52,046 nt of DNA from Mediterraneibacter glycyrrhizinilyticus. Lineage in GTDB: Bacteria > Bacillota > Clostridia > Lachnospirales > Lachnospiraceae. Below, piece after piece: positions 17,305 through 45,864 of this stretch. The translations under genes and the position numbers were made by a program. The notes below the pieces were generated by a model. It had not been told where the DNA came from, did not search any database, and worked only from the letters and a program-made list of their open reading frames with translations. The DNA lies in NCBI RefSeq assembly GCF_015560805.1, contig NZ_JADMSO010000016.1, positions 1 through 52,046 of the forward strand, read 5' to 3'. Position 1 is the first letter of the stretch, and every line of letters starts with the position of its first letter.

Positions 17305-17586
17305 TTATTCCGCCAGTTCCAGAAACGTATCCGTTCCGGATTCATAATACGGCGCCATTCCCGGGATATGTTTTGCAAAGGACTCTCCCTGCACATGTGC
17401 AAGAAAATCTTCTTTTGCATCCCATTTCGATACGAATACGACGCGGTTCTCCACTTCCGGATCCACATATACGTTCATCTCATGACATCCTTTATCGTTT
17501 GCACCGTCCGCGGCGAATGCTTTTGCAAGCGGAAGATAGGCGTCCCGGTCTTTTACTCTGTTATCTGTGATCACCAATACCATCAT
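17305..17586 (-). CDS. ABM-domain monooxygenase-like protein
   Basis: A small 93-residue protein with the antibiotic-biosynthesis-monooxygenase (quinol monooxygenase, YgiN-like) ferredoxin-like fold: MVLVITDNRV start, NDKGCHEMNVYVD centre and VVFVSKWDAKEDFLAHVQ. Members are small dimers that oxidise quinols or degrade haem, or have no known activity. The start ATG overlaps the upstream flavoprotein stop (TAATG), so the two are translationally coupled and probably work in one redox pathway. Confidence 0.82.
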   Translation of the reverse strand: MMVLVITDNRVKDRDAYLPLAKAFAADGANDKGCHEMNVYVDPEVENRVVFVSKWDAKEDFLAHVQGESFAKHIPGMAPYYESGTDTFLELAE

Positions 17587-18563
17587 TATGCCTCGATATA
17601 TTTCTCAAAATTTTTGATGCGATCCATCTTTTCATCCAGCAATTCTTTGTTTGCCATGATCTTCGGTCCGCAGATAGCACCAAATCCCTGAATCTCAATT
17701 GTATGCTCGCGAAGTCCTTTAAATGTTCCTCTTGCTCTTGCCTGCTGTTCCTCAGAAAATGTTACTTCCAGCTTGTCTCCGTTGATCGCAATCTTTCCTT
17801 CGATTCCACAGATCGGACATTCTACTGTTGTTGTTCCATTCACTGTCAGAAGGTCCTGATGGCAGACCGGACATGTTCCGTTTCCTTGCGGTCCGTAAAA
17901 TTCTACATCTTTCGGATCCATCTCAAATGCTTTAGCAGTACGTTTTCCGATTTCATGCATCTGGTCGATCAATTCTTCATCCAGATATGGATTTCCGATC
18001 GTTCCCATACTATAAGCGTTGTAATTTGCAACAACCTGCATCATTGCAGACATTCCAAACAAATGTAATCCGGCTGTTCCCATGGAAACCCAGTTTTTCG
18101 TGCTTGCTCCGCCAACAGAAATATAAGATACCGTACGTCTTCTCAAACGCTCCTGTGGGAATTCATCCGGATCTCCCGGCATCTCGCCGCTTCTTCTCTT
18201 ATCCAGCACCCAGTTGATCGCAGATACATCGTGACGGCATGAAAAACGGTCTACGAAATCTTTCAGCTGTCCTACCGGCTGAAGCACATAAACCGGAGCT
18301 GCCACGATAATCGCATCTGCTGCTCGTACTTCGTTCTCCAACATCTGAAAGTCATCTTTGATGATACATTCATTGTCTTTTCCCTTTTCCAGAGCCGTAG
18401 AACATGCTCCGCATCCGATACAACGACCGATATTCAAACGCTGTGTGTTGATGAATTTGATCTCTGCGTCCGGATACGCCTCGCGTGCTCCGTACAGCGC
18501 TTCTTTCGTGAGAATGTCGCAGTTTGCATTTTTCTTTCCAAATGATAAACCTAAAATCTTCAT
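17586..18563 (-). CDS. Iron-sulfur flavoprotein / NAD(P)H-dependent FMN reductase with Zn-ribbon tail
   Basis: 325 residues from ATG 18563 (AAGGGA upstream). The N-terminus KILGLSFGKKNANCDIL is the FMN phosphate loop of the flavodoxin-like reductase fold. A compact Cys cluster, CIGCGAC plus a fourth Cys near residue 66, matches the [4Fe-4S] motif of the iron-sulfur flavoprotein (Isf) group. Near residue 232 a CPVC...CPIC pair forms an extra zinc ribbon or rubredoxin-like knuckle, not part of the usual Isf core. Expected role: electron transfer to a small acceptor, possibly detoxifying oxygen species or reducing quinones with its monooxygenase-like partner. Substrate unknown. Confidence 0.83.
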   Translation of the reverse strand: MKILGLSFGKKNANCDILTKEALYGAREAYPDAEIKFINTQRLNIGRCIGCGACSTALEKGKDNECIIKDDFQMLENEVRAADAIIVAAPVYVLQPVGQLKDFVDRFSCRHDVSAINWVLDKRRSGEMPGDPDEFPQERLRRRTVSYISVGGASTKNWVSMGTAGLHLFGMSAMMQVVANYNAYSMGTIGNPYLDEELIDQMHEIGKRTAKAFEMDPKDVEFYGPQGNGTCPVCHQDLLTVNGTTTVECPICGIEGKIAINGDKLEVTFSEEQQARARGTFKGLREHTIEIQGFGAICGPKIMANKELLDEKMDRIKNFEKYIEA

Positions 18564-18737
18564 TGTTTTATCCCTTTCTCTCTTCATTTTGACCTTGGCG
18601 TCGATGATCACCGACCCTGACATCGTTTATGTATTTAAGTATAAATCAGCCTCCCTCCGACGGCTTCCCTTTTTTTGCCGTCTTTCCTCGCTCAAAAATG
18701 ACCTGTCTTTCCATTTTTCTTTTTACCATAAAAACAT

Positions 18738-18790: not shown

Positions 18791-20350
18791 TCAATATTTA
18801 TATAACTCCACATACAGACATTCTGCCATATCTCCGCATTTCAGGCTCATCTGCTCATCTCCGTTCAAGATTCTTCCCGGCAGCCACTCGCCGTTTTTGA
18901 TCTCGCCCTCCTGTACTTTGACATAATTCACTTTCTTTCCGTCACTTTCCTTTGCACGGAATGTAAATGTACTTCTCATACCGACGATCAGAAACTGATC
19001 TTCTGAGAGTTCATAGATCATTCCTGCTGCCAGCGGTTTCTCCGGCATCTTCGGTGCATATGCCACCGATACATCATAATTTTTAAACCGGAAATAGATT
19101 CCGAAATCTGTATCGGATTTCCGCACATACGCTTTCAGATGCTCGCTTCCGCGGTATTTCATATAAAGTGGTTTCATCTCATCGATCAACTGATAGACTC
19201 TTCCGAGATATTCTTTACTCCCCCGAATCTCAAATGCAGACGGATCGATATTGAGCGCCGCCATCACTTCCATCGGCGGACGGTCGATCGCTTCCGGCGG
19301 CAGCGCAAGATCCTCGATCCCAAATGGCGAATAGCAGATCGCATTGTGTTTTCCAAAGGCATACAGCGCGTAAGATGCCGTCACCGCGTCTTTTCGGACT
19401 TCCGGCACAAACAGCGGATTGCCCTCATAACTATATTCATCCATCGCATTTGCAACATACGGCACATAAATATCCGGCGCCAGCGTAAACAGCGACGGGG
19501 CCGCCATCTTCCAGATCTTATGTACTTCACAGACCGGACCGCCTGACGGATAAGATCCCGCATACCACGGATATTGCCTGAGCCACGCATTCGCATAGCA
19601 TGGAAGCGGATATTCTTTCCGCCCCGCATCTGTGATCTGCTCCACCGCTTTCGCAAAATGATATGCCATAAAATATTCTTCCGCATCGTCGCCGAACGCA
19701 GATTTCCAGTCCCCCCGCGCGCCGTAAAGCTTCGTCATTTCCTCCGGGATTTCCTCTGCAAGTACTTCCCTTGCCCTCGGGCTGTAATCGCACGCCGTAT
19801 TCAAAAGTCCGATCTCATTTTCCACCTGCATGACGATCACGGTGGATTCGTCCGCATCAACTTCCCGGATGTGCGCCATCACCGCCGCAAATGCTTTCGC
19901 ATCCTTTTCGACCGCGTCCCGGCAGAGCGGTGAGATCGTATTGATCGTCTCGCCCAGAGCCGTCTGCACGCGCCAGTATTTTTCCGAATCCCGCTTCATC
20001 CAGCCCGGCACATAAAATGATTCTGCATTTTTCCAAAGCCCGAACCATAGAAAGATCAGATGCATCTTATGTTTTCTTGCCTGCCGGATCAGTCCGTCCG
20101 GAAGTGTGAAATCATACTGTCCCTCTTCCGGCTCGATCGACTCCCAGTAAAGCGGTACGATCAGAGAATTCAAATGCATATCTTCCACTTGTTTCCACAC
20201 ATGTTCTTCCATATAATCCAGACTGCTCGCACTGGAATTGTGGATTTCTCCGCTCAATGCGAAGAACGGTTCCCCTTTCACATATAACGTGGAGATCCGA
20301 CCGTCTTTCCGGATCTCCGGAATCGGGTATTTTTCTGTTGTTTCACCCAT
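18791..20350 (-). CDS. GH35-like beta-galactosidase family protein (DUF5597 type)
   Basis: A cytoplasmic glycosidase of 519 residues. The TIM-barrel part has the clan-A landmarks IVPLYWESIEPEEGQYDF near 70, the acid/base Glu in VMQVENEIG near 190 and the probable nucleophile Glu in LFVPEVRKD near 330. The C-terminal beta domain resembles the DUF5597 module of GH35 relatives. No signal peptide, so it would act on imported oligosaccharides, presumably terminal beta-galactosides or a related sugar. ATG 20350 is 8 bases from AGGAGG; upstream in-frame codons lack a ribosome site. Single gene, divergent from the AraC regulator at 20556 and sharing its operator region. Confidence 0.85.
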   Translation of the reverse strand: MGETTEKYPIPEIRKDGRISTLYVKGEPFFALSGEIHNSSASSLDYMEEHVWKQVEDMHLNSLIVPLYWESIEPEEGQYDFTLPDGLIRQARKHKMHLIFLWFGLWKNAESFYVPGWMKRDSEKYWRVQTALGETINTISPLCRDAVEKDAKAFAAVMAHIREVDADESTVIVMQVENEIGLLNTACDYSPRAREVLAEEIPEEMTKLYGARGDWKSAFGDDAEEYFMAYHFAKAVEQITDAGRKEYPLPCYANAWLRQYPWYAGSYPSGGPVCEVHKIWKMAAPSLFTLAPDIYVPYVANAMDEYSYEGNPLFVPEVRKDAVTASYALYAFGKHNAICYSPFGIEDLALPPEAIDRPPMEVMAALNIDPSAFEIRGSKEYLGRVYQLIDEMKPLYMKYRGSEHLKAYVRKSDTDFGIYFRFKNYDVSVAYAPKMPEKPLAAGMIYELSEDQFLIVGMRSTFTFRAKESDGKKVNYVKVQEGEIKNGEWLPGRILNGDEQMSLKCGDMAECLYVELYKY

Positions 20351-20432
20351 CAGAACATCCTCCTTAATCTGTTTTCTGTTTGTCTCCTTTTGGTTTGTTT
20401 TCCTTTTTGGTTTATATTCCGTTTCTGCCTTT

Positions 20433-20462
20433 ATTATAAGGATTCTTGACATCCGATCACAA
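20433..20462 (-). promoter_or_regulatory. Promoter of the GH35-like gene
   Basis: Minus-strand -35 TTGTGA (20462-20457), 18-base spacer, -10 TATAAT (20438-20433). The weak -35 overlaps the shared activator motif at 20460-20487. Confidence 0.65.
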
Positions 20463-21452: not shown

Positions 21453-23657
21453 TTAAAATTTCACTCTGATCTCTTCACACAGACAGTCTCTGGAATTGCC
21501 GCCGACATAGATTCGGAACAATCCGTCTTCTTTTACATACTGTCCCTGATTGTCGTAAAATCCCATTTCTGCTTTTTTCAGCGTCAGTTCCACGCGTTTC
21601 TCTTCTCCCGGCTGCAGTTCAACCTTTGCAAAGCCGCGCAGTTCTTTGACCGGACGCACCAGACTTGCCGTCACATCCTGCATGTAAAGCTGCACCGTTT
21701 CCGTTCCGGTATGGTCTCCCGTATTTTTCACAGACACGTTGACATGCAGGCAGTCGCTTTGTTCTTCCACATGAAGCTCCTCATATGCAAATGTCGTATA
21801 GCTCAATCCATGGCCGAACGGGTACAGCGCTTCATGCGGCGCGTCCAGATATCGGGAAGTAAATTTACTGTTGCTTCCCGGACGTCCGGTACTCGGATGA
21901 TTGTAATACATCGGACACTGTCCGCTCACAGACGGGAACGAAGACGCCAGTTTTCCGCTCGGATTGACGTCGCCGAATAATACGTTTGCGACCGCATTTC
22001 CCATTTCGATCCCAAGATGCCATGCCTCCACGATAACCGGCAGATGTTCCGCCTCCCATCCAAGCGCCAGCGGACGTCCGTTCATCAGAACCGTTACGAC
22101 CGGTTTTCCCGACGCCAGCAGTTTTTCCAGAAGTTCCCGCTGTTTTCCCGGCAACGTAATGTCCGCTTTCGAGGATGCCTCTCCGCTCATGCTGCAAAGC
22201 TCTCCGACCACTGCCACGATCACGTCGCTGTCCGCGCACGCCCGGCGGATCTCTTCCTCATTCAGTTCCCCCTCCGGTCCTCCGCACGGATAATAAGCGA
22301 GGTCTGCACCGCTCTTTTTCAGCCCGTCCAGGATCGACACACAGTCTTCCTCTTTCCAGCTCATCGCCCATGCGCCGCAGACTTCTTTCGCATCTGCCGC
22401 AAGCGTTCCGACAAGACTGATCTTCTGCCCTCTGGAAAGAGGCAGGATCCCGTTTTCATTTTTTAAGAGAACGATCGACTTTTCCGCCGCTTCACGCGCG
22501 GTCTGCACGTCCGCTTCCGGAAGTCCGCTCTGCTCATACAGCCTGATCACATCTTCCGGCACATACGGATTCTCAAACAAGCCGAGCCACATTTTCACGG
22601 AAAGGATCCGGCGGACAGCGTCGTCGAGCACGTCCATGGAAACCCGTCCGTCTTCCACCGCCTGTTTCAGATGATCTTTGTAAATATGCGTTCCCATATC
22701 CATATCCAGTCCCGCATTAACCGCCTGACATCCTGCATCTTTTTCATCTTCCGCAATGCCATGCGCCACACATTCTTTGATCCCGTTGGCGTCGCTGACT
22801 ACAAATCCCGGCAGTCCGTACAGATCTTTTAAAATCGTCCGGAGTGTATAAGGATTGACGGTACACGGAACGCCGTTTAAATCATTGAACGCCGCCATTG
22901 CCGTCGCCGCGCCCTCTTCCACCGCCGCTTTGAACGTCGGAAGATAAACATTGTGAAGCTGGGAAACCGACATGCTCGTCGTATTGTAATCCCGCCCCGA
23001 TTCACATGCGCCGTATGCCACATAATGTTTCAGACATGCCGCCACATAATCAGCCGTATCCGATGTATCGCTCTGGAGTCCCCGGATTTTTGCACGGGCA
23101 AATGTACTTCCGAGATACGGATCTTCTCCCGGTCCCTCCGATACACGTCCCCATCTGGAATCTCTCGCCACATCGATCATCGGCGCAAAATTCCAGTTGA
23201 TCCCATGGGCTCTCGACTCACGCGCCGCCAGATGTGCCGTCCGCTCAAACAGCTCCGGGTCGAATGTTCCTGCTTCCGCGATCGCGATCGGATACACGGT
23301 GCGCAGTCCGTGGATCACATCAAATCCGGTCAGCATCGGGATCCCCAGTCTGCTCTCCTCCACTGCGATCTTCTGCAGCTCATTATTTTTCCGCGGATCA
23401 TCCGCCATCATCGCCCCGACCATTCCGGCGCGGATATCATCTTCATGATAATCACGCTGTGCGGTGGACATGATCTTCTGAAATTCTTCTTTGGACAATC
23501 TACCGTCCGTCATCATCTCGATCAATTCTTCAAACGGCACGTCGAATCCGCCGACGATGGACGGGGATTCCAGATTCATCTGTCCGATCTTCTCCTCCAA
23601 TGTCATCTGCGCGAGCAGTTCTTCCACCCGCTCTTTTTGCTCTGCACTCAGTTTCAT
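21453..23657 (-). CDS. GH3 beta-glucosidase (BglX type)
   Basis: 734-residue glycoside hydrolase family 3 enzyme, cytoplasmic (no signal peptide). The N-terminal barrel runs from MTLEEKIGQMNL to the conserved NFAPMIDVARDSRWGR and the substrate-binding ACLKHYVAYG near 200; the nucleophile Asp is in GFVVSDANG near 280, where most relatives have SDW. The second alpha/beta domain and a C-terminal fibronectin-III-like domain (YPFGHGLSYTTF onward) complete the standard architecture. It removes beta-linked glucose or xylose from imported oligosaccharides. ATG 23657 is 9 bases from AGGAGG. The leader is unusual: a terminator and a hairpin repeat lie between promoter and start. Confidence 0.93.
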   Translation of the reverse strand: MKLSAEQKERVEELLAQMTLEEKIGQMNLESPSIVGGFDVPFEELIEMMTDGRLSKEEFQKIMSTAQRDYHEDDIRAGMVGAMMADDPRKNNELQKIAVEESRLGIPMLTGFDVIHGLRTVYPIAIAEAGTFDPELFERTAHLAARESRAHGINWNFAPMIDVARDSRWGRVSEGPGEDPYLGSTFARAKIRGLQSDTSDTADYVAACLKHYVAYGACESGRDYNTTSMSVSQLHNVYLPTFKAAVEEGAATAMAAFNDLNGVPCTVNPYTLRTILKDLYGLPGFVVSDANGIKECVAHGIAEDEKDAGCQAVNAGLDMDMGTHIYKDHLKQAVEDGRVSMDVLDDAVRRILSVKMWLGLFENPYVPEDVIRLYEQSGLPEADVQTAREAAEKSIVLLKNENGILPLSRGQKISLVGTLAADAKEVCGAWAMSWKEEDCVSILDGLKKSGADLAYYPCGGPEGELNEEEIRRACADSDVIVAVVGELCSMSGEASSKADITLPGKQRELLEKLLASGKPVVTVLMNGRPLALGWEAEHLPVIVEAWHLGIEMGNAVANVLFGDVNPSGKLASSFPSVSGQCPMYYNHPSTGRPGSNSKFTSRYLDAPHEALYPFGHGLSYTTFAYEELHVEEQSDCLHVNVSVKNTGDHTGTETVQLYMQDVTASLVRPVKELRGFAKVELQPGEEKRVELTLKKAEMGFYDNQGQYVKEDGLFRIYVGGNSRDCLCEEIRVKF

Positions 23658-23898: not shown

Positions 23899-24420
23899 TT
23901 ATCTTGACTCCGGAAGAATCTTTCTCACAAGCCATTTCTGGAGCGCGTCCACTCCGATCCCCACATATACGACGCCGGCGATCATCGCCACGCCGATCTG
24001 GATCGGCAGAGAACCAAGTTCCGCAACCGGAAGCGGTCCCATGATCGTAAGACCGATCGCCCAGCCGCAGAGCCAGGACGGTACAAAGATCCACTTCGGC
24101 AGGCTCTCCCCGATCAGAACTGCCAGTCCGCCAAGCACAAACAACGTACCGTACAATTCCACATTCGGATGAAACGGAAGTGTTTCCATGATCCAGACTG
24201 CAAGCACTGCCCAGAGATCTCCACAGAGAAATCCGACCGCGATCTTCAGCGCATCTTTCCGCTTATTTCCGTTTGCCACATAAAGCCCCGCGCAGATCAG
24301 CGCCACCGCTCCGGTGCTCACACCGAGATATGGGGAAAGCACCGCCCAGATCGGAGGCATAAATGCGATTCCAAATGCCAGCGTCAGCATATTGACCCGT
24401 TTTCTCTTTTTTTCATCCAT
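23899..24420 (-). CDS. DUF1097-family membrane protein
   Basis: 173 residues from ATG 24420 with about five membrane segments (GIAFMPPIWAVLSPYLGV, LYGTLFVLGGLAVLIGES and others) and a Lys/Arg-rich N-terminus. The overall pattern matches DUF1097 proteins such as E. coli YcdZ, which have no proven function. It starts 4 bases after the butyrate-kinase stop codon, with AGGAG within that gene's end, so it is the last member of the thiolase operon. Being the only membrane protein there, it may move the operon's substrate or product; this is inference from position. Confidence 0.78.
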   Translation of the reverse strand: MDEKKRKRVNMLTLAFGIAFMPPIWAVLSPYLGVSTGAVALICAGLYVANGNKRKDALKIAVGFLCGDLWAVLAVWIMETLPFHPNVELYGTLFVLGGLAVLIGESLPKWIFVPSWLCGWAIGLTIMGPLPVAELGSLPIQIGVAMIAGVVYVGIGVDALQKWLVRKILPESR

Positions 24421-24424
24421 GCGC

Positions 24425-25540
24425 TTACTCCTGCCACGGGAATCCGTCCCATACAAGTTTGCCTGTATATTCTTTGACTTCTTCTTCCCCGTTCAGCACG
24501 CGGATCGCGCCTGCCGCCATCGCTTCCATCTCAAATTCACCCGGATATGCGTAAACCGGAGCGATGAAAGAACAGCTTTCCGTGATCTGGCGGACCAGAT
24601 CTTCATTATAGACCATTCCGCCTCCGAGCAGGATTCCGTCTACCTTTCCGTGGAGCACCGCAGCCATGGAACCGATACATTTCTCGATCTGGTAGATCAT
24701 CGTGTTCCAGAGCATTTCCGCATACTTATCGCCTGCCTGCGCGCGCTTTGTCAGTTCCAGCGCGTCGGAAATTCCGGTATGGCTTACAAATCCGCCGGTT
24801 CTCGTACAGAGTTTCTTCACATCCGCGATCTCCAGATTCTCTTTCTTCATATATTGAAGCAGATCTGCCACGGAAACGCTTCCGCAGCGTGTCGGAGCCA
24901 TCGGTCCCTCGCCGCCTACGATGTCGTAACCGTCTACCATTTTTCCCTGACGGTGCGCGGAAACAGAGATTCCGCCTCCGATATGGCAGACTACATAATT
25001 ACATTCTTCATATTTCTTGTTCATCACATTTTTACTGTGACGGATCGCTGTCTCTTTTAAGTTCAGCGCATGCAGATGGATGACGCGGTTCACGCCTTTG
25101 ATACCGGTCATTCTCGCAAGATCCTGCAGTTCATCCACGTCCGGCGGATTGACAACCATTGCCTTTGCGCCGTACTGTTCTGCAAATTCACGGGCAAGCT
25201 GCGGTCCGAGACTTGCCGGATGGATCACGCCGTTTGCGCAATTCTTCGCATGATCGAGCATCAGATCCGTCACTTCGTATGTACCGCCCTCCATTGCCAG
25301 AAGTCCGCCTCCGCGTCCTACAAACACGTCCACGTCTTCCAGAGATACGTTCGCCTCTTTTAACAGAGACAGGATCATATCCCGACGGTATGGAAGCTGT
25401 TCGCTCAATGTAGCAAACTTTTCCAATTCTCCCGCATCATGAGAGACATTTTTTGAAAACAGACACTCTTCTCCGTCAAACAACGCGATCTTCGTCGATG
25501 TAGATCCCGGATTGAGCGCCAATACTTTATATTTCTTCAT
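24425..25540 (-). CDS. buk: Butyrate kinase-family acyl kinase
   Basis: 371-residue ASKHA-fold kinase that converts an acyl phosphate and ADP to a carboxylate and ATP. Visible are the N-terminal phosphate loop ALNPGSTSTKIALF, VFVGRGGG, the HIGGGISVSAH motif near 195 and GILLGGGM near 300, all typical of butyrate kinases and distinct from acetate kinase. Branched or hydroxylated acyl phosphates are also accepted by family members, so the substrate is open. It lies 19 bases after the phosphotransacylase gene; together they would conserve the energy of an acyl-CoA or acyl-carrier thioester as ATP. Confidence 0.92.
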   Translation of the reverse strand: MKKYKVLALNPGSTSTKIALFDGEECLFSKNVSHDAGELEKFATLSEQLPYRRDMILSLLKEANVSLEDVDVFVGRGGGLLAMEGGTYEVTDLMLDHAKNCANGVIHPASLGPQLAREFAEQYGAKAMVVNPPDVDELQDLARMTGIKGVNRVIHLHALNLKETAIRHSKNVMNKKYEECNYVVCHIGGGISVSAHRQGKMVDGYDIVGGEGPMAPTRCGSVSVADLLQYMKKENLEIADVKKLCTRTGGFVSHTGISDALELTKRAQAGDKYAEMLWNTMIYQIEKCIGSMAAVLHGKVDGILLGGGMVYNEDLVRQITESCSFIAPVYAYPGEFEMEAMAAGAIRVLNGEEEVKEYTGKLVWDGFPWQE

Positions 25541-25559
25541 CTTGTATTTCCCTCTTTTC

Positions 25560-26561
25560 TTATTGCATTCCCGCTGCGCGCACTGCGCTGATCACGATAT
25601 TTCCTTTGATCTCGGAAACCGGAGCCCCTCTGGAACAGTCACATACCACCTTGTTGAATCCCTGAAGCATCGGACCGTACGCGTTGGCATGTCCGAACTG
25701 CTGGATCAGTTTGACTGCCACATTTCCCACATTCAAATCCGGCCAGATCACAACATTGGCTTTTCCTGCCACCTTGCTCTCACGTCCGACTTTCTTCGCC
25801 GCAACTGCCGGAGAGATCGCCGCGTCAAACTGAAATTCTCCGTCAATCGCGAGATCTGGGCGCTGTTCCTTTGCAATCTTCACAGCCTCCACGACTTTGT
25901 CGATCAGTTCTCCCTGACCGCTTCCAAGCGTAGAGTAACTTACCATCGCACACCGCGGTTCCCAGTCGAGCAGAGCTTTTACCGTGTCGCACGCGGAGAT
26001 CGCAATGCTTGCAAGCTGTTCTGCATTCGGGTTCGTACATACCGCACTGTCTCCCACTGCCAGAAGACTTCCCTCGCTGCCCTCAAATCCCGGAATGTCG
26101 CAGAGTCCGATACTGGAGATCGTGCTGATCCCCGGCTGCATTCCGATGATCATCTGTCCTGCCAGAAGAACGTCTCCGGTCGTATTATCAATCCCGGCAA
26201 ATGTAACTTCCGCCTCTTCCACTGCCTGCATGACCATCGCATAGTAAAGCGGATCCTGCATCCGGCGTGCGAGCGCCTTTTCTTTCAAAAATCTGCCCGG
26301 CTGCGCTACATACATGCCGATCAGTTTGTTCTTATACTCTTCTTCCTGAATATCGACAAAACGGAATACCGAACTGTCATATCCACGTTCCTCGCTCAAA
26401 TCTTTAAGCTTCTTAGCGTCTCCTACGAGGATCGGAATGATATAACCGTCTTTTCCGGTCTCGTAAGCCGCCTGCATCATCTTCTCATTTTCCGCTTCCG
26501 GAAATGCAACGCGCTGCGGGTTTTGCTTCGCTTTCTCGTAAATCTGATCTAAAATACTCAT
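25560..26561 (-). CDS. Phosphate acyltransferase (Pta/Ptb family)
   Basis: 333 residues, the length of short phosphate acetyltransferases. Family signatures include RVAFPEAENEKMMQAA at the N-terminus and ANVVIWPDLNVGNVAVKLIQQ near 270, with YGPMLQGFNKVV after it. It exchanges the thiol of an acyl thioester for phosphate, giving acyl phosphate. Pta-type sequences favour acetyl, Ptb-type butyryl; I judge this closer to Pta, yet its partner is a butyrate kinase. The ATG abuts the acyl-carrier stop codon (TAAATG), implying coupled translation and matched amounts. Confidence 0.9.
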   Translation of the reverse strand: MSILDQIYEKAKQNPQRVAFPEAENEKMMQAAYETGKDGYIIPILVGDAKKLKDLSEERGYDSSVFRFVDIQEEEYKNKLIGMYVAQPGRFLKEKALARRMQDPLYYAMVMQAVEEAEVTFAGIDNTTGDVLLAGQMIIGMQPGISTISSIGLCDIPGFEGSEGSLLAVGDSAVCTNPNAEQLASIAISACDTVKALLDWEPRCAMVSYSTLGSGQGELIDKVVEAVKIAKEQRPDLAIDGEFQFDAAISPAVAAKKVGRESKVAGKANVVIWPDLNVGNVAVKLIQQFGHANAYGPMLQGFNKVVCDCSRGAPVSEIKGNIVISAVRAAGMQ

Positions 26562-26801
26562 TTACATCTGCTCCTCAACTTTGTCCACCAGTTCGCCGAT
26601 CGTTGCGCATGCCGCTGCTACCTGAAGCTGGATCAGAACGTCCAGTTCATTTTCGATTTCGGAAACAAGTCCTACCATCAAAAGGGATGCTCCGCCCAAT
26701 TCTTCTTTGATCTTTGTGTCTACGCTCAGTTCGCTTGCGTCTTTGTTGTAAGACATCGCTACCAGTTCAATGATCTTTGCTTCTAATTCTTTTCTATCCA
26801 T
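26562..26801 (-). CDS. Acyl carrier protein
   Basis: A 79-residue acidic helical protein. The phosphopantetheine site is Ser 39 in ELGGASLLMVGLV, corresponding to the DSL motif, with Ala replacing the usual Asp. Helix II continues with SEIENELDV as in normal ACPs. No fatty-acid synthesis genes are near, so this is a dedicated carrier for the thiolase pathway rather than the housekeeping AcpP. Its presence beside a phosphotransacylase and kinase is unusual, since those enzymes normally use CoA thioesters. Confidence 0.88.
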   Translation of the reverse strand: MDRKELEAKIIELVAMSYNKDASELSVDTKIKEELGGASLLMVGLVSEIENELDVLIQLQVAAACATIGELVDKVEEQM

Positions 26802-26821
26802 GATAAATCTCCTTTTTCTTT

Positions 26822-27232
26822 TTATTCCTCGTCCAGCGCGAACACAACAGTTTTGTATCCGTCTCTCTGGAAGATTTCCGCGTGTACCGGAACCGGAAGT
26901 TTCTCCAGCAGTTCTTTTCTTTTTTTCTTGTTGATCCCTTTGACGACCGCATTGAAACTTGCGCCCTCTTCTATCTCAACTTCTCCGTATGCGATCGGTC
27001 CCATCTGGCTGTATTCCGGTTTTGAGGACAATGCAGCCGGCATAACGATCGATTTCATCACAGCTTTTCCGCTGATCTCGACCCATTCCATATCCATGCA
27101 TCCGCAAGTGTTGCATGCATAAACCGGAGGAAATTCTACCGCTCCGCACTCTTTACATTTACGTCCGAGGAATTTTCCTTCTTCCAGACTTTCGTAAAAT
27201 TTTTCTACTACTTTTTCCAATTTAACGCTCAT
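26822..27232 (-). CDS. Zn-ribbon OB-fold protein (DUF35), thiolase partner
   Basis: 136 residues from ATG 27232 (AGGAGG 9 bases upstream). The N-terminal helix is followed by a four-Cys rubredoxin-like zinc ribbon (CKEC near 25, CNTC-GC near 40) and an OB-fold with IAYGEVEIEEGA. DUF35 proteins bind SCP2-type thiolases and align their active sites, as in archaeal acetoacetyl-CoA synthesis, PhlB of acetylphloroglucinol formation and the steroid side-chain aldolases. Thirteen bases separate it from the thiolase gene. Confidence 0.9.
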   Translation of the reverse strand: MSVKLEKVVEKFYESLEEGKFLGRKCKECGAVEFPPVYACNTCGCMDMEWVEISGKAVMKSIVMPAALSSKPEYSQMGPIAYGEVEIEEGASFNAVVKGINKKKRKELLEKLPVPVHAEIFQRDGYKTVVFALDEE

Positions 27233-27245
27233 CGTATTCGTCCTC

Positions 27246-28565
27246 CTATTCCTCAATCGTCCGAAGAAGTACCGCCGCTACGTTCTGCGCACCGCCGTAT
27301 CCTCGAAGCATCGTTGTCTTCGGCAGTTTTTTCACCTGACGTTCGCCGCATTCGCCGCGCATCTGCATACATGCCTCGTATACGTCTGCCATACCGGACG
27401 CCGCATGCGCGTGACCAAACGAAGTTCTTCCTCCGTTTGTGTTGATCGGTTTATCCCCGTCGTATGCGGTACGTCCCTCGCAGATATATTTCCATCCCTC
27501 TCCGTACGGAAGATATCCTGCGATCTCAGCCGCACAGAGGTGTGAGGTGATGATGAAGTCATTTGCAAAGAACAGATCCAGCTCTTCCGGCTGTACCCCT
27601 GTCATCTCGTAGACCTGACGGACTGCTTCTTCTGTCGCACGCAGTTCAAAGTGAGGAGTTGTGGACTCGCATGCCGCGCTTCCGACTCCCAGAACTTCGA
27701 TCGGTCTGTGTTTTAAATTCTTTGCGATCTCCGGAATCATCTCGGTTGCGCATACGATCGCAGCTGCCGCTCCGTCACATTTACGCTCTACGCCCTCCAT
27801 ACGAAGAAAGTCTCCCATCTTCGGGTTGTACGGGGATCTCATGTAATCCATCACATTATCGAATCCTTTTTCTTTTGCAATATCCGCAAATTCCGTACGC
27901 TCCAGCGCCAGCGGATTCTTTGCCGCGTTACGGCGGTTGTTGATCGCCATCCAGTTCAATGTATCGTCCATCTCCTGCGCTGTGATCCCGCGGGTACGCA
28001 CATAGTCTTCTGCCGCGTCATCGTAGATCAGTTCCATCGGAGCCATCAGACTTCTTGCATAAGCACGGTCATAAAGCCAGGATGTTGTTGCAAGGAATTT
28101 ATCCATTGTCATCTTTTCGCGCTTATACGGGTGCTTCGGAGCCTCCACGCTTGTTGCCGGAGCCGGGATGCTGTCGCCGAACTCCACACATCCGGTCAGG
28201 ACGCAGTTATATTTTCCGGAAGCGACTGCATTGACTGCCTGCTCGATTGCCAGATATCCGGTACAGCATGCTTCGGAATGGTGGATCGATCCTTTTCCTT
28301 TCATACCGAACCAGTTTCCGATCTGGATGTTCGGAGTCAAATAGTTGGATCCGTTCAGCGGACTTGCCTGTCCATGGAAATAAAAATCCACATCCTGCGG
28401 ATTTACTCCTGCATCTTCCATCGCTTTGAGCGCGGCATATCCGAACAATTCTCCCTCTGTCAGACCGTTCGTCTCCGGATTGTCCACTGTATACATAAAC
28501 GGAGTACAGCCGACACCGATGATGGAAACGCTTCTCTGATACTTGCCTAATGTTGTACGATTCAT
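27246..28565 (-). CDS. SCP2/archaeal-type thiolase
   Basis: 439-residue thiolase-fold enzyme, first gene of the operon. The nucleophile Cys lies in HHSEACCTGYLAIEQAVNA near residue 100, and the catalytic His in SFGHAHAASG near 380, following NTNGG. The C-terminus ends RGYGGAQNVAAVLL rather than the CxG loop of ordinary biosynthetic thiolases, placing it in the SCP2/archaeal group that works with DUF35 proteins. That group does thiolytic cleavage, Claisen condensation, Friedel-Crafts acylation or retro-aldol cleavage depending on the partner. Start ATG 28565 has AGGAA 7 bases upstream. Confidence 0.9.
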   Translation of the reverse strand: MNRTTLGKYQRSVSIIGVGCTPFMYTVDNPETNGLTEGELFGYAALKAMEDAGVNPQDVDFYFHGQASPLNGSNYLTPNIQIGNWFGMKGKGSIHHSEACCTGYLAIEQAVNAVASGKYNCVLTGCVEFGDSIPAPATSVEAPKHPYKREKMTMDKFLATTSWLYDRAYARSLMAPMELIYDDAAEDYVRTRGITAQEMDDTLNWMAINNRRNAAKNPLALERTEFADIAKEKGFDNVMDYMRSPYNPKMGDFLRMEGVERKCDGAAAAIVCATEMIPEIAKNLKHRPIEVLGVGSAACESTTPHFELRATEEAVRQVYEMTGVQPEELDLFFANDFIITSHLCAAEIAGYLPYGEGWKYICEGRTAYDGDKPINTNGGRTSFGHAHAASGMADVYEACMQMRGECGERQVKKLPKTTMLRGYGGAQNVAAVLLRTIEE

Positions 28566-28606
28566 TTTTTTCTTCCTTTCTTTTTGTACTTTACCTTTGT
28601 ACGCTC

Positions 28607-28667
28607 ATTATATATAATATAAGCGCCGGAATCATTGGTTTATTGTCCGAGAAACAACCCGTTGTTT
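28607..28667. promoter_or_regulatory. Control region of the thiolase operon
   Basis: Minus-strand -10 TATAAT (28612-28607) has no good -35 (the best is ATGATT at 17 bases), which suggests dependence on an activator. About 40-55 bases upstream of the -10 is the perfect palindrome AAACAACCCGTTGTTT (28652-28667), also preceded by TTGT-N7-ACAA, a reasonable site for the divergent PucR-type regulator. Confidence 0.5.
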
Positions 28668-28706: not shown

Positions 28707-30251
28707 ATGGAATTACACCTTTTATTAGATAAATTAAAAGAAAATAAATGCGCCCCACAGTGCTTCGGATGCCCGGATCAGTCGCGGGATCTGCTCTGCG
28801 TGCGCATGTTGGAACAGAAACAGTCCGTCTTTGAACCATCCACGCTCTATCTGACCGATCCGGATTCACTTCCCGATCCGTCTGTGACGGAAGATTTCGC
28901 CGTATTCTGCTGCGGCGACGCCATTGATTTTTCCGCATATGAAAACAGCGCATTTACCGTCGTATACTTCGGAAATGAGATTTCCTGCGAGCGGTTATTT
29001 AATCTGACTATGGAACACCTGACGGAATTGCAGCAGATCACGGTCGGCATGCATCTGCTCGTCAACGCAGTATTCTCCGGAAACGGACTGCAGTATCTGA
29101 TCGACACTGCCACCCACATTTTCGGAAATCCGATCTACGTCGTGGATCTGCAGAACAAATATCTTGCAATGCCGGAGGGACTGCTTCCGGACAGTGATTT
29201 TTTCCGGGAAGAGAGCCGAAGCGGCTATATCAGCGCCTCGGGGATCGCATCGATCCGCGCCAACCGTCTGGATGAGAAAGTCCGCCGGTCCGGCACGGCT
29301 TATTACTATGTCAACGATCTTGTCGGAAAAGGAATGCTCGTAGACGCCGTCAAAATACAGGGGATCGAAGTCGCACACATTATGATGCTGGAATCAGAGC
29401 AGCCATTTCATGAGTACGATCCGGATTTCTTTCACCGTTTTTCCAATCTGGTTTCTCTGGAACTGCAGAAAGATTCCGCCTACACGCGCAACAAAGGGAT
29501 GATGTACTCTTATTTTCTCGCCGACCTGCTCCGAAATTCCAATGTCAGCAACATCCGCCAGCGTCTGGAAGATCTCGGCGTGCACTTAAAAGAGACCTTT
29601 TATATCATCGCGATACCGCCCGCCGGAGTCGGTCTTTCCAACCTGCGTCAGGAAATCATTTTGGAGCGGGTCAAACAGATCCTGCCGGAAAGTATTTATG
29701 TCATCTACGAGGAGACGATCGTCCTTTTGATCAGTCAGGATCTGGATCAGAATCTGAACAAATATGAGATCGCCCGGCTCGACGAATATCTCTCGGCGAA
29801 CCATTTAAAAGCCGGGATCAGCAACTTTTTCCAGTATCTCGAAGATACCGCCCGTTTTTACCGTCAGGCTGTGGATTCCGTCCGCATCGCCAACCGGCTC
29901 AATGTTCCGGACGCGATCTGTTATTACAGCGACTATTATGTCTACCGGATGCTGGAGACATTTGAAAAAGAAGATACCGAAATCCGCTTCCTGATCCATC
30001 CCGGACTGATGAAGCTCTATCTCTATGACCAGAAGCGGGAGACCGAACTGATTTCGACACTGCGGGAGTATCTGGTCCATCCGGGACAGTCTTCCCTCGT
30101 CGCGGAGAACCTGCACATCCATAAGAATACGTTGCTCTACCGGCTCGGAAAGATCCGCGAGATCACCGGATGCAGTCTCTCGGACGGCGAAGAATTTATG
30201 AACCTCAATCTTTCCCTGATGATCATGAATTATCTCGGAATGCTCGCCTGA
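28707..30251 (+). CDS. PucR/CdaR-type transcriptional regulator
   Basis: 514 residues. The N-terminal 30 residues are Cys-rich (CAPQCFGC, then C near 32), which could bind a metal or sense redox. The middle has a GGDEF-like/PucR central region without an obvious catalytic motif. The C-terminus is the PucR-type helix-turn-helix: LREYLVHPGQSSLVAENL followed by HIHKNTLLYRLGKIREI near 475-495. Such proteins are mostly activators that respond to a catabolic intermediate. Its gene is divergent from the thiolase operon with 141 bases between, so it is the likely regulator. ATG 28707 follows TAGGAG. Confidence 0.88.
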   Translation: MELHLLLDKLKENKCAPQCFGCPDQSRDLLCVRMLEQKQSVFEPSTLYLTDPDSLPDPSVTEDFAVFCCGDAIDFSAYENSAFTVVYFGNEISCERLFNLTMEHLTELQQITVGMHLLVNAVFSGNGLQYLIDTATHIFGNPIYVVDLQNKYLAMPEGLLPDSDFFREESRSGYISASGIASIRANRLDEKVRRSGTAYYYVNDLVGKGMLVDAVKIQGIEVAHIMMLESEQPFHEYDPDFFHRFSNLVSLELQKDSAYTRNKGMMYSYFLADLLRNSNVSNIRQRLEDLGVHLKETFYIIAIPPAGVGLSNLRQEIILERVKQILPESIYVIYEETIVLLISQDLDQNLNKYEIARLDEYLSANHLKAGISNFFQYLEDTARFYRQAVDSVRIANRLNVPDAICYYSDYYVYRMLETFEKEDTEIRFLIHPGLMKLYLYDQKRETELISTLREYLVHPGQSSLVAENLHIHKNTLLYRLGKIREITGCSLSDGEEFMNLNLSLMIMNYLGMLA

Positions 30252-35887: not shown

Positions 35888-38296
35888 TTATGCAAGTTTC
35901 CGCACACGGATAAACGCAATCTCGTTATACTGCATCGGAATATTCAATTTCAGCGCAGCATCCTCCACATCCTGTTTGCGGATCGTCAGCTTCGGCTCGC
36001 ACATCCTGCGGAAATATTTGATATCATTTCTGGAAAGCTCCTTTTCATAAGCCATTTCTTTCCATATATTCATGACGTTCCCATTCTTGATATTGATGCA
36101 ATACGTCTTGATCTGGTACGTTCCGTTCGGAAGATCGTTCAGTTCCAACTGCAGATCCAGCGTGTCCCTGTCTTCAAAATATTTCCAGAGAGACTCTTTT
36201 TCCAGTTCATCTTCCTTCGTCAGATAGTAAATGTACCCAAGCTTCCGCTGATTATGGCAGATGATCCCATAGGAATCATGCCGATCGGTCGTGATCAGAT
36301 AATTGGCGCCCTTTCCGATATAATAAGGATACAGTCGCTGCAGGAATTCAAACGCAAATCCCGCCGGTTTCAAAATACCGTCGCGCGTCATCAATCCGGT
36401 TCCACCGTAAAGCAGTTCCTGAGAATCATAAGATTCCGAAATACGGTCACTGCCGATAAAATATCCCATATCATCGACCATTCCATACAGATCCAGTATA
36501 TTTTTGATAATGTATGCACCTTTAAAACAAGTATCATTGATATAATTTCTCTCAGAAAACGTCAGATTCCACTCCGTCAGGTAACGTTTGATATTTCCAA
36601 GCCCCGCTTCATTTAAAAGATCGATTTCCCGCTCAAGCCAATGTTTCATACATGCGTCGTCGGTACTTCGTTTTGCATACATATCCTGCTGCTCCTCGCC
36701 CCGGTCATATGCAAAATAAATGATCGAAAGAAAATCCGGCTGGATCTCCCGCGCTTTCCACCGGCGATAAAATTCCCTGCGGCTGTCTAATTTACAGTCC
36801 AGACGGATCCCGCATCCGCCGACTTCCAAGCTGTCACTATACTGTCTCACCGTCCTGTATAAAATTTCAAACAGACGGAAATAAGTGTCGGATGTGCCGG
36901 GACGTCCCCATTCACATTCGTTGAACCACAGTTCCATCCTCCATGTATCCAGTTCCGCCCTGCCGTAGCGGCGCGCAAGATGCTGCATCATCGCCGTTAA
37001 AACGTCCTGCCACTTCTCTTCATCCGGAAACGGAACGTCTTTCGTCGTCCCCTCATATTCGGATTTCTGTACCGCAAACACAATGACTTTTGGCTTTTGA
37101 CCGATCTCAATATGTGGTTTCAGTCCCTGCGCCAGTACAAAATCCAGAACGGAATCCAAACGGGAAAAATTATATTCCCCGCTGCCGTCAAGGCTGATCA
37201 GCATTTCTTTGGAAAACAGGTTCCAGAACCGCACATATTCAAACTTCAGCGCTTCTTTCAGAAGCATCACATGTTCCCGGATTTCCGAACGGAGCAGATC
37301 CGCCGCAGATCCTACATTGAGCATCCGCCCCCAGTACCGCGGCAGTTCTTTTTCCTCACAGACGGAATAACGATTACTGCACACATCGACTGTCTGCGTC
37401 TCTTCTTCCTCATTTTCCGAGATCAGATATTGCTCCAGACGCTTTTCTAATACTTCGTCCTTTTCCTCCTGCCCTGCCGCATCTTTCTGGCTCTTCGCCT
37501 TTTTCCGAAATGCGGACGGCGTCTCTCCGTAAGCATTTTTGAATATTTTATTAAACACGGCAACGCTGGCAAATCCGTTGTCATAAGCGATCCGTGTGAT
37601 CGGCGTACTCGTATAAAGCAAGTCGTCCACTGCATGGAACAGGCGCACATTAGTCAGATATTCCGCAAAACTCATCCCATAGTTCCGCTTGAAAAACCGG
37701 GATAAATAGCCGTTCGACAAATACAACTGATCCGCCAGTTCTTTCAGACTGATCGGCTGACTGTAATTCGCCCGGATATAGTTATTGATCTGCCGGATCC
37801 GCTCGTCGAATTTATCCTGCTCATCCAGCATTTCCTTATCCGACGTCCGCACCAGAAAATACATCGACAGATTATCGAGCACACGGTAGCAAAGCGCGAT
37901 ATGCCCGAAATTCGCGGTGTCCCCTTTCATTTCCACATAATGTTTCAGAAGCACTTTCAGGATCTTCCGCAATTCCTCATAACGTTCGCTTTTGTCATTT
38001 GTCGAATTACACCAGAAGATCACATCGCCGCTTTGCAGGACATCGCTGACTGTCTGGTACAGGATGGAAAGCTGAAGAAACAGTACATTTTCCGAGCCGT
38101 TCAGCATATGGTGTTTGTTGGCGTTGAGCACAAAAATATCTTCCGCCTCCAAATGTACCGTCTCTTCCCCGGAAGTCACCTCCAGCGTTCCCTCCAGCAC
38201 ATAGAGCAGTTCAATGTCCTGATGAAAATGTTCGATCCCGTCCGTCTTATTATATATATGTAGTTTTACTCGCTCCCTGCGCCCGTTCGTATCCAT
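35888..38296 (-). CDS. AraC regulator fused to a GH39-like domain
   Basis: 802 residues. Residues 1-150 are a cupin sensor (HFHQDIELLYVLEGTLEV). Residues about 165-270 are the AraC double HTH (ISLKELADQLYLSNGYLSRF; YDNGFASVAVFNKIFKNAYG). From about 310 to the end is a TIM-barrel plus beta domain like GH39 beta-xylosidases: the acid/base position reads WFNECEWG (NEC instead of NEP) and the nucleophile region reads YLTEWNLTF. The domain may sense xylo-oligosaccharides rather than, or in addition to, cleaving them. ATG 38296 lies 3 bases after the GH43 stop codon, so it is the last gene of that operon and may control it. No membrane segment or signal peptide. Confidence 0.9.
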   Translation of the reverse strand: MDTNGRRERVKLHIYNKTDGIEHFHQDIELLYVLEGTLEVTSGEETVHLEAEDIFVLNANKHHMLNGSENVLFLQLSILYQTVSDVLQSGDVIFWCNSTNDKSERYEELRKILKVLLKHYVEMKGDTANFGHIALCYRVLDNLSMYFLVRTSDKEMLDEQDKFDERIRQINNYIRANYSQPISLKELADQLYLSNGYLSRFFKRNYGMSFAEYLTNVRLFHAVDDLLYTSTPITRIAYDNGFASVAVFNKIFKNAYGETPSAFRKKAKSQKDAAGQEEKDEVLEKRLEQYLISENEEEETQTVDVCSNRYSVCEEKELPRYWGRMLNVGSAADLLRSEIREHVMLLKEALKFEYVRFWNLFSKEMLISLDGSGEYNFSRLDSVLDFVLAQGLKPHIEIGQKPKVIVFAVQKSEYEGTTKDVPFPDEEKWQDVLTAMMQHLARRYGRAELDTWRMELWFNECEWGRPGTSDTYFRLFEILYRTVRQYSDSLEVGGCGIRLDCKLDSRREFYRRWKAREIQPDFLSIIYFAYDRGEEQQDMYAKRSTDDACMKHWLEREIDLLNEAGLGNIKRYLTEWNLTFSERNYINDTCFKGAYIIKNILDLYGMVDDMGYFIGSDRISESYDSQELLYGGTGLMTRDGILKPAGFAFEFLQRLYPYYIGKGANYLITTDRHDSYGIICHNQRKLGYIYYLTKEDELEKESLWKYFEDRDTLDLQLELNDLPNGTYQIKTYCINIKNGNVMNIWKEMAYEKELSRNDIKYFRRMCEPKLTIRKQDVEDAALKLNIPMQYNEIAFIRVRKLA

Positions 38297-42601: not shown

Positions 42602-42721
42602 TCTTGTATGTCCTCCTGCTTTCGTTTTTAACTTGATAGTAACACAGACATGTAAGAACTTCATTTCCGATAACAGCGAAAATGGGGATGATTTTTTTCC
42701 TTTCTTTTTCCTATTGAAAAA

Positions 42722-42756
42722 ACAGGTCAAAAAAGAAATGCTCTTTTTTGACCTGT
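42722..42756 (-). terminator. Terminator of the GPH-GH106 operon
   Basis: ACAGGTCAAAAAAG pairs with CTTTTTTGACCTGT; on the minus strand followed by TTTTTT. Confidence 0.9.
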
Positions 42757-42785
42757 CTTTTTGATTTCCTATGATTTCGGACATC

Positions 42786-45700: not shown

Positions 45701-45836
45701 CACCGAATCCGGTTTCCTCCAAATCTGCAATCTCCTCTTTTAATGTTTCATCTGTGTGGAATCCCTCTGCCAGCCACCAACGTACATCCGGCCGATATTG
45801 GATTTCCGGATTCTGCAATTTTTCATACTTCTTCAT
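42786..45836 (-). CDS. GH106-type alpha-L-rhamnosidase
   Basis: 1016 residues. The N-terminus (NPEIQYRPDVRWWLAEGFHTD then EEIADLEETGFGAVEFLAM) is the hallmark of GH106, followed by a long barrel with MYMDSLELG and the RAEISYGLPFEISQPG region, and a C-terminal galactose-binding-like beta-sandwich (VRVWVNGKQADVVDFDALTV). A low-complexity Asn/Ala/Glu stretch (ANANNANAGMEENQAEAG) is inserted near the C-terminus. No signal peptide. Expected to release L-rhamnose from imported pectin fragments or rhamnosides. ATG 45836 follows GGGAGAGG; it is the second gene after a GPH symporter (28-base gap), so transport and cleavage are coexpressed. Confidence 0.85.
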   Translation of the reverse strand: MKKYEKLQNPEIQYRPDVRWWLAEGFHTDETLKEEIADLEETGFGAVEFLAMEEPGADSKLYGWGSEEWVHDSHTIVEETTKRKMGVSMTSGTNWSNANLITITPDDKAAAKELDYAVETVKAGESRSGAILKSELTMPGVTKQELEAVVAIRIAGEKNGKTCLDRKKSMILTDQVKEEVLIWTAPEDGDYLLFFFWIHGTGQTAEPSVSTSYTINYIDRYGVEAFIDYWENTVLTPELRKNVEENGRAMMYMDSLELGTFGKGGQFWGYHFREEFEKRRGYDLTPYLPLILKQPGMMQPVYHYYYVCEDEVFTEKLYNDLYQTMTDMYMENMLKPMQEWLHTHNMTLRAEISYGLPFEISQPGKYVDGIETESLEFASQIESYRNLAGPAHIYNRTYSSETGATLLNYMMGLDFYTQIIFTQFTAGVTKTVLHGYSSIRGSEESTYWPGHEGMWPIFSERFGSRQPSYIHYKDWTAMIARYQMLLRQGKPRMDLGILRLDYNFNNLIMGGDERELYAKELMRGNEGLYWKDMKLQNAGYTWDYFAPQILEESFVDFEDGELLPDGPGYRALIIYQETLPVRTAEKLLAMAKKGLPILFVNGVNETIRPGGITKTHGKAAIRTPFYDGEDERLQHIVAEMKSLANVREAEHQEDVYRILQELDIRPITEFAESNKHILTHVQEADGKLFVYAYNMQYSETEAFSFTMKVRGVGKTYEIDCWNGTVREAGAYRQEAGCTVLDLTLAPGAACMYVIDQKEAADLHVVSHTFAAIEKEGEHLQAAALVSGTYEAVLSDGTKREISVEVPEDLELPSWTLEVEDWNEGEKKEIIENRGLGIVTKEVYYETAKRKISVGETMLKPWKEIEAVGPEVSGIGQYRATFKLPEAWSERNGAVLKIGSVNKHTVRVWVNGKQADVVDFDALTVDISDLLKDGENEIRVEVTTSLNNRLLARGYYEKGKAFSMALAANANNANAGMEENQAEAGADPAALFNVHTTVVDYGMTGEVKLITYTRIEL

Positions 45837-45864
45837 ACTCTTAACACCTCTCCCGCATTTCATT

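Follow-up and report, generated by a model that had tools for sequence, protein, structure and literature searches.

FLR, the flavone ene-reductase of Flavonifractor plautii (structures 7D38-7D3B), was described as important for flavonoid consumption by gut bacteria, and a C. ljungdahlii homologue with 29.7% identity was deleted and complemented (PMC7862272). PhlACB, a DUF35-thiolase complex, acylates phenols, and Cys88 of its PhlC subunit was acetylated in the crystal after soaking with monoacetylphloroglucinol (MAPG; PMC6392133). Here we describe a 52,046-nucleotide stretch of Mediterraneibacter glycyrrhizinilyticus (contig NZ_JADMSO010000016.1, positions 1 to 52,046), referred to throughout as the window, that contains a six-gene operon joining a thiolase and a DUF35 protein to an acyl carrier protein (ACP), a phosphotransacylase (Pta), a butyrate-type kinase (Buk) and a DUF1097 membrane protein. 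To our judgement there is about an even chance that this operon is a module that cleaves reduced plant polyphenols with conservation of energy, standing in for phloretin hydrolase (PHY); what the thiolase acts on, by which chemistry and in which direction is what we infer from gene content and sequence. Searches of the open-access literature, in which most subscription journals and all preprints were not covered, found no match to an already characterised pathway, and as far as those searches go the component families are known, whereas joining them through an ACP to gain ATP from polyphenol cleavage is undescribed.

The six open reading frames at 23899-28565 are all on the minus strand with gaps of 13, 20, 0, 19 and 4 bases, and are divergent from a PucR-type gene starting at 28707, exactly as given in the initial annotation. 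Its family assignments also hold, based on Pfam and NCBIfam profile matches:

27246..28565, minus strand: SCP2/archaeal-type thiolase-like subunit of an ACP-associated clade, 439 aa, presumed nucleophile Cys100, and His385 (Thiolase_C_1, 8e-30)
26822..27232, minus strand: DUF35-type partner with zinc ribbon, 136 aa (zf-ChsH2, 4e-7)
26562..26801, minus strand: dedicated ACP, 79 aa, Ser in GGASLL with Ala before it (PF00550, 3e-8)
25560..26561, minus strand: phosphotransacylase of a distinct subgroup, 333 aa, Ser-Arg motif retained (PF01515, 3e-86)
24425..25540, minus strand: acyl kinase of the butyrate-kinase family, Buk, 371 aa (TIGR02707, 373.4 bits against a cut-off of 289.1, which assigns the family and not the substrate)
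23899..24420, minus strand: DUF1097 membrane protein (profile match, 6e-20)
28707..30251, plus strand: PucR-type transcription regulator, divergent from the operon (HTH_30, 2e-18)

Relatives of the window thiolase were sought in 299 genomes of the family (E<=1e-20), 12 of which, the window's own included, have one, and in eight of these, again including its own, a relative is at least 76% identical. A pattern-based scan of a species-genome collection gave 79 loci, from the best 80 of at least 367 relatives among at least 594 candidate stretches. Before counting, we removed ten thiolases that shared at least 97% identity with another one, and the 89 left were divided into clade A (at least 56% identity to the window thiolase; 39), clade B (41-56%; 35) and a rest of 15. 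All counts derive from profile searches of stop-to-stop frames in the fetched DNA with score thresholds that we set (the open reading frame caller missed some genes), and many loci are truncated at a contig end. Clade-A loci have DUF35 (39), ACP (35), Pta (30), Buk (29), PucR (12) and DUF1097 (11), and the first four of these frequencies establish that the gene combination is more than chance. The clade-B loci have DUF35 (34), ACP (28), Pta (17), Buk (17) and an OYE-type reductase (8), and the same profiles detected no ACP, Pta or Buk in the remaining 15 thiolase loci. Two of the four clade-A loci without an ACP end no more than 0.8 kb from the thiolase. Thiolase is followed by DUF35 and then ACP in 32 of 39 clade-A loci, 14 keep the five-gene core thiolase-DUF35-ACP-Pta-Buk complete and in order, and seven have all six genes in exactly the window's order. 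The arrangement is thus not unique to this strain; such uniqueness would, according to the initial annotation, have refuted its interpretation. The core was found in Lachnospiraceae of the rumen and gut as well as in Erysipelotrichaceae and two streptococci; hosts of the species-scan loci include Butyrivibrio, Pseudobutyrivibrio, Eubacterium plexicaudatum, Blautia metagenome-assembled genomes, Streptococcus ovis, S. 'caviae', Erysipelotrichaceae and others, many of herbivore-gut origin judging by entry titles. A search of viral contigs yielded no relative. A maximum-likelihood tree placed the window thiolase inside well-supported, almost wholly ACP-associated groups (the smallest starred sets having 6, 15 and 28 rows, with one row without ACP in the 28-row set), and archaeal and other ACP-less relatives fall elsewhere. 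One thiolase subgroup (L033, L035, L083 and L099; L and G numbers denote our loci and genomes) has no ACP, Pta or Buk in the fetched DNA and adjoins two xylose-isomerase-like genes, a VOC-like protein and an aldo/keto reductase-like gene.

Controls were 20 regions from seven genomes carrying the module or a paralog, several of them on the same contigs. One control, L127 (G036), holds a module remnant and is not independent, counting as 1/20 for each of ACP, Pta and Buk. The p-values given below assume independent loci, an assumption that related genomes violate, and the number of controls is low. In the remnant (L127:3800-6510), an unrelated gene is followed by the end of a DUF35 gene and then by ACP, Pta and Buk frames of a second module, together with what by eye is a MATE-type transporter, a kind also found near the window operon.

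The setting in which the operon would act is indicated by reductive genes, one of which lies in the window:

17586..18623, minus strand: FLR-type flavone ene-reductase homologue, likely of the same pathway (PDB sequence match 7D38, E=1.8e-35)

This match is the only one in the PDB at E<=0.01, and the FLR-type homologue inside a relative's operon likewise matches solely the 7D38 protein. The window protein has an FMN_red domain (PF03358), Trp149 and a C-terminal part with His271 and Ile275, features by which it qualifies as a putative ene-reductase of the FLR family. The statement in the initial annotation that no reductase is present must therefore be corrected, all the more as relatives have reductases inside the operon. 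FLR homologues scoring above our threshold of 100 bits are near 17 of the 39 clade-A thiolases versus none of the 20 controls (p=0.0002), a single control match of 35 bits having fallen under that threshold. Of the residues reported to be needed in FLR, Trp149 is kept in 26/26 thiolase-linked proteins, His271 in 25/25 aligned and Ile275 in 24/25; Gly106 is poorly kept (8 Gly, 5 other residues and 13 gap-aligned) and is Ser in the window protein. Identity to the F. plautii enzyme is 27-33% for 23 of the 26, 61% for L068 and 48% for L049 and L063, and FLR-type genes number 0 to 8 per genome in the ten genomes searched. Abutting the window homologue is a gene for a 93-aa ABM-type protein (PF03992; 17305-17586, minus strand) that could carry out an isomerase-like step, and a pair resembling these two genes by eye recurs next to a GH3 gene in G036 (L150). 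A second reductive component is a fumarate-reductase-like flavoprotein (FRD), present in 11 of the 39 clade-A loci, whose best NCBIfam match is the vinyl phenol reductase VprA, at a score under its cut-off; NQO7 and C16 or C22 look like its NAD(P)H and iron-sulphur partners. Four Butyrivibrio-type loci (L048, L052, L054 and L056) have the order PucR / FLR-FRD-NQO7-C22-THIOL-DUF35-ACP-PTA-BUK-DUF1097, with an MFS gene next in L048 and L054, and their genomes have the module instead of a PHY-family gene.

In other genomes it is PHY (PF18089) that occupies the same position. PF18089 was found at E<=1e-20 in 15 of the 299 family genomes, in 31 places, and we examined 24 loci representing 25 of those places: L191, L042 and 22 loci at which ACP, Pta and Buk are all lacking (L098, which like L191 and L042 has PHY with ACP or thiolase genes, is not among the 22). 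The gene order is FLR-FRD-NQO7-C22-MFS-transporter-PHY in L200 (G230), divergent from a regulator that by eye is PucR-like, PucR / NQO7-C16-FRD-PHY-DUF1097 in L234 (G265), and NQO7-C16-FRD-DUF1097-PHY in L238 (G126), and the PHY gene of L200 matches the solved phloretin hydrolase 5XE5 at 4.9e-33 and PhlG at 2e-29. A PF18089 protein even lies between ACP and Pta in L191, in the order DUF35-ACP-PHY-PTA-BUK. PF18089 is absent from 10 of 11 named module genomes that we picked from the species-scan loci, the other, Faecalicatena orotica, having one at 63.5 bits, and it had no match in the window's own genome; the operon's likeness to PHY would be functional only, and not one of family. Thiolase and PHY co-occur in four of the 299 genomes, which is above chance (p=0.002) and a pattern expected for polyphenol specialists. 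The module and PHY are thus alternatives within operons, whereas a genome may have both. Because of the FLR, FRD-type and PHY neighbours, the substrate class is predicted to be polyphenols and the context of the operon to be their breakdown. The initial annotation had proposed breakdown of a beta-keto acid or acylated compound; ATP-yielding breakdown of an acylated compound is still the best reading, with polyphenols favored over an unspecified beta-keto acid as the substrate class.

The same neighbours bear on the possibility, to which we give a distinctly lower chance, that the setting is polyphenol breakdown and that the bond cut by the thiolase is in a classical beta-keto (Claisen-type) intermediate, formed e.g. 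after hydrolytic ring opening, with the ACP merely carrying the product. The reductive trunk would suit either intermediate, the nearest folds and families are CoA thiolases, and the conservation of Cys100 and His385 follows the thiolase pattern. However, PHY, whose characterised members cleave aryl ketones, adjoins the same reductive genes in L200, L234 and L238, which points to the aryl-ketone step itself, and no ring-opening or CoA-activating enzyme was recognised among the recurrent neighbour clusters inspected, in which not every neighbour was identified.

Several observations weigh against the operon being a polyphenol cleavage module that replaces PHY. FLR is missing at 22 and FRD at 28 of the 39 clade-A loci, and the 22 ACP-less PHY loci include FRD in four, NQO7 in three, and FLR and DUF1097 in two each, so PHY is not always tied to the reductive trunk. 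PHY is located 6 kb from a thiolase with a fused DUF35-ACP and Pta in L042, with a similar situation in L098 (species scan), the distance being below 15 kb from a thiolase with ACP and Pta in both. PF18089 is also present in four of eight close-orthologue genomes (weakly in G154), the window's own being among the other four. Pta (L067) or Buk (L027, L030, L031 and L046) can be absent without a contig end as explanation, and L072 and L073 are FLR-THIOL-DUF35 without ACP in the fetched DNA. In addition, CoA thiolases come first among the fold matches of the thiolase model (down to E 8.5e-31), and a PhlC-like active site is not supported, so that catalytic details must presumably differ from those of PhlC: we had considered His64 as the equivalent of PhlC His56 and rejected this, since HMMER aligns His64 with PhlC Tyr53 and the essential His56 is three residues on.

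The ACP serine is invariant in 73 of 73 distinct ACP domains. The Ala before the pantetheine Ser, which the initial annotation had pointed out, is indeed present in the window ACP, but the preceding residue varies (Ala 38, Glu 10, Ser 7, Gln 7, Lys 6, Thr 2, Pro 2 and Asp 1), making it ordinary for this family. DUF35 and ACP are fused into a single chain that has one or two ACP domains, both in a sister clade and in Erysipelotrichaceae, and Pfam confirmed two PP-binding stretches in the L097 fusion. Genes for a phosphopantetheinyl transferase (PPTase) or AcpS are near 7/39 clade-A and 6/35 clade-B loci (13/74) versus 0/20 controls (p=0.03). PPTase-superfamily genes number merely one or two per genome in the eight genomes searched, and the sole PPTase found in G291, likewise in G036, is within ~10 kb of one of these thiolases. 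The proximity at 13/74 loci, and the two such genes in the window's own genome, make it likely that the ACP is pantetheinylated in the cell. Acyl-ACP thioesterase genes are beside six clade-B loci. Based on the invariant Ser, the fusions and the PPTase genes near some loci, the ACP is integral to the thiolase/DUF35 system, and the fusions mark it as a true partner. A generic fatty-acid ACP was rejected on the same fusions. Together with the occurrence of ACP at nearly all clade-A loci, they leave scarcely any probability for an ordinary CoA thiolase and Pta-Buk that adjoin an unrelated ACP of fatty-acid synthesis, common as the individual families are.

ACPs and PPTases are typical of biosynthesis, and they count in favor of the reverse direction, in which Buk and Pta would activate a free acid (ATP to acyl-ACP) and thiolase/DUF35 would acylate or condense a phenol. 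PhlACB-like DUF35-thiolase complexes acylate phenols (PMC6392133). Another locus, L044 (2049-6575), has a distant thiolase-DUF35-ACP operon with genes that by eye are FabD-like and carboxyltransferase-like, which suggests a malonyl-ACP variant and would also fit a biosynthetic role. We nevertheless consider this direction improbable for the window operon given the catabolic-looking neighbours, i.e., glycosidases, ene-reductases with NADH partners, PucR, PHY and the C-glycoside deglycosidase subunit (CGDB) of L193.

Cys100 and His385 are kept in 49/49 aligned thiolase rows, and His64 is near-invariant (47/49). These residues, the thiolase fold and the DUF35 gene in all clade-A loci identify the protein as a thiolase-superfamily member with a DUF35 partner. 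Its AF2 model (pLDDT 91.6) matches thiolases, BbsB, PhlC and Ltp2-type aldolases alike, a spread that does not separate thiolase from PhlC or aldolase chemistry. The Ltp2 and Sal-Shy aldolases among these structural matches, and the zf-ChsH2 zinc ribbon that is the only Pfam-recognised portion of the DUF35 partner, are what favors an enzyme of the Ltp2-ChsH2 or Sal-Shy kind, a retro-aldol lyase whose substrate would be carrier-bound and whose product Pta-Buk would process. The invariant Cys100 argues instead for acyl transfer, and aldol cleavage would give Pta no thioester unless the substrate was already one, with no acyl-CoA ligase among the six genes; the retro-aldol explanation seems to us still less probable than the biosynthetic one. 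The six genes also do not include a FabH-like PhlA subunit. The window Pta scored under both NCBIfam equivalog cut-offs (pta, 253.5 versus 311.2; Ptb, 68.9 versus 410.5) and an acetyl or butyryl identity was rejected on those scores; it is placed by sequence in a separate subgroup of PF01515.

For the cleavage of reduced polyphenols with ATP gain, we propose the following sequence of steps. Glycosidases encoded by neighbour genes would free the aglycone, and the linked FLR-type ene-reductases, in relatives also fumarate-reductase-like ones, would saturate it to a dihydrochalcone-type aryl ketone or a 1,3-diketone. Cys100 of thiolase/DUF35 would then attack the ketone carbonyl, with the polyhydroxyarene as leaving group, and the acyl group would pass to the pantetheine arm of the dedicated ACP held by DUF35, a link that gene fusions reveal. 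Judging from their families, Pta would convert acyl-ACP and phosphate to an acyl phosphate, from which Buk would generate ATP and a free aryl-alkanoic acid. Possibly, the DUF1097 and MFS membrane proteins move the substrate or product.

A third variant has no thiolase in the stretches at hand. L193, L195, L196, L197, L198 and L146, the last in the window's own genome, combine ACP and Pta with an S15/CocE-type hydrolase; Buk is present in all but L146, and FRD, NQO7, FLR, OYE or DUF1097 genes are found in five of the six. DUF1097, which also adjoins PHY in L234 and L238, occurs in L193 and L197, and L193 has the CGDB gene. The L063 hydrolase has an N-terminal ACP according to our own profile search (57 bits), unreported by Pfam at 1e-3. 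The locus in the window's genome (L146:1637-15079, contig C11) comprises NQO7, C16, a VOC protein, an AcpS-like protein, the S15/CocE hydrolase, ACP, Pta, MFS and an OYE-type reductase. Given this variant, ACP-Pta(-Buk) looks like a plug-in energy module. More broadly, and with a likelihood somewhat short of even, we suggest an ACP-based substrate-level phosphorylation in which interchangeable acyl-releasing enzymes (thiolase/DUF35, the S15/CocE-type hydrolase, once ACP-fused, and the PHY-family protein in one locus) load polyphenol acyl groups on a dedicated ACP, and an ACP-adapted Pta and kinase would yield ATP.

Other genes in the window include a GH43 gene, a carboxylesterase and these glycosidases:

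21453..23657, minus strand: GH3 beta-glucosidase-type gene, next downstream of the operon (profile match)
18791..20452, minus strand: GH35-family beta-galactosidase-like gene (NF051902, 505.8 bits, cut-off 500)
39950-42784 and 42786-45878, minus strand: two GH106 alpha-L-rhamnosidase-like genes, possibly for deglycosylation (PF17132)

A GH3 gene of the same cluster is in the paralog locus L038, and a look-alike (by eye) lies beside the FLR orthologue in L150. At 35888-38296 (minus strand), an AraC-type regulator is fused to a GH39-like glycoside hydrolase domain and is possibly a sugar-sensing regulator. UroD-like (methyltransferase-type) genes recur beside thiolases in L034, L041, L042, L060, L072, L073 and L094, possibly for O-demethylation of methoxylated phenolics. 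A BKACE-type follow-on pathway was rejected, the BKACE family being absent from the window's genome.

If the operon has the proposed role, polyphenol cleavage would give these bacteria ATP, explaining why they perform it, and the hydrolase used by other species would waste energy that the module conserves. The module would also provide marker genes for polyphenol degraders overlooked by PHY-based surveys, and an ACP-dependent biocatalyst for breaking, and possibly making, C-C bonds. The displacement of PHY makes its function directly testable with purified enzymes.

Compared with known systems, the operon resembles phloretin hydrolase/PhlG in its place beside FRD-NQO7-C16/C22 genes, in two cases with DUF1097, and differs in that PHY is a single hydrolase of another family that forms neither a thioester nor ATP. 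Benzoylsuccinyl-CoA thiolase BbsAB and archaeal acetoacetyl-CoA thiolase/DUF35 share its fold and DUF35 pairing, whereas they are CoA-dependent and ~25% identical; we know of no ACP for either. The aldolases Ltp2-ChsH2 and Sal-Shy, which perform retro-aldol reactions on steroid-type CoA thioesters, similarly pair a thiolase fold with a DUF35 partner, but have no Pta-Buk. The multicomponent Friedel-Crafts acylase PhlACB has a thiolase-like subunit and a DUF35-type partner, and its own Cys accepts an acyl group from an acylphloroglucinol (PMC6392133), resembling the role proposed for Cys100; unlike it, the window operon lacks PhlA, has a His64 that does not align with His56, and adds ACP, Pta and Buk. 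The C. scatologenes phloroglucinol pathway (PMC10470551) is likewise an anaerobic polyphenol catabolism with a terminal kinase step, but processes the released ring through CoA thioesters, and the BKACE family missing from the window's genome belongs to it. The F. plautii flavone pathway (FLR, CHI, EnoR and PHY; PMC7862272) shares the FLR-type reductase and the same proposed substrate logic, with the differences that FRD-type flavoproteins join the clade-A loci noted above and that thiolase/DUF35/ACP/Pta/Buk would take the place of PHY and thereby give ATP.

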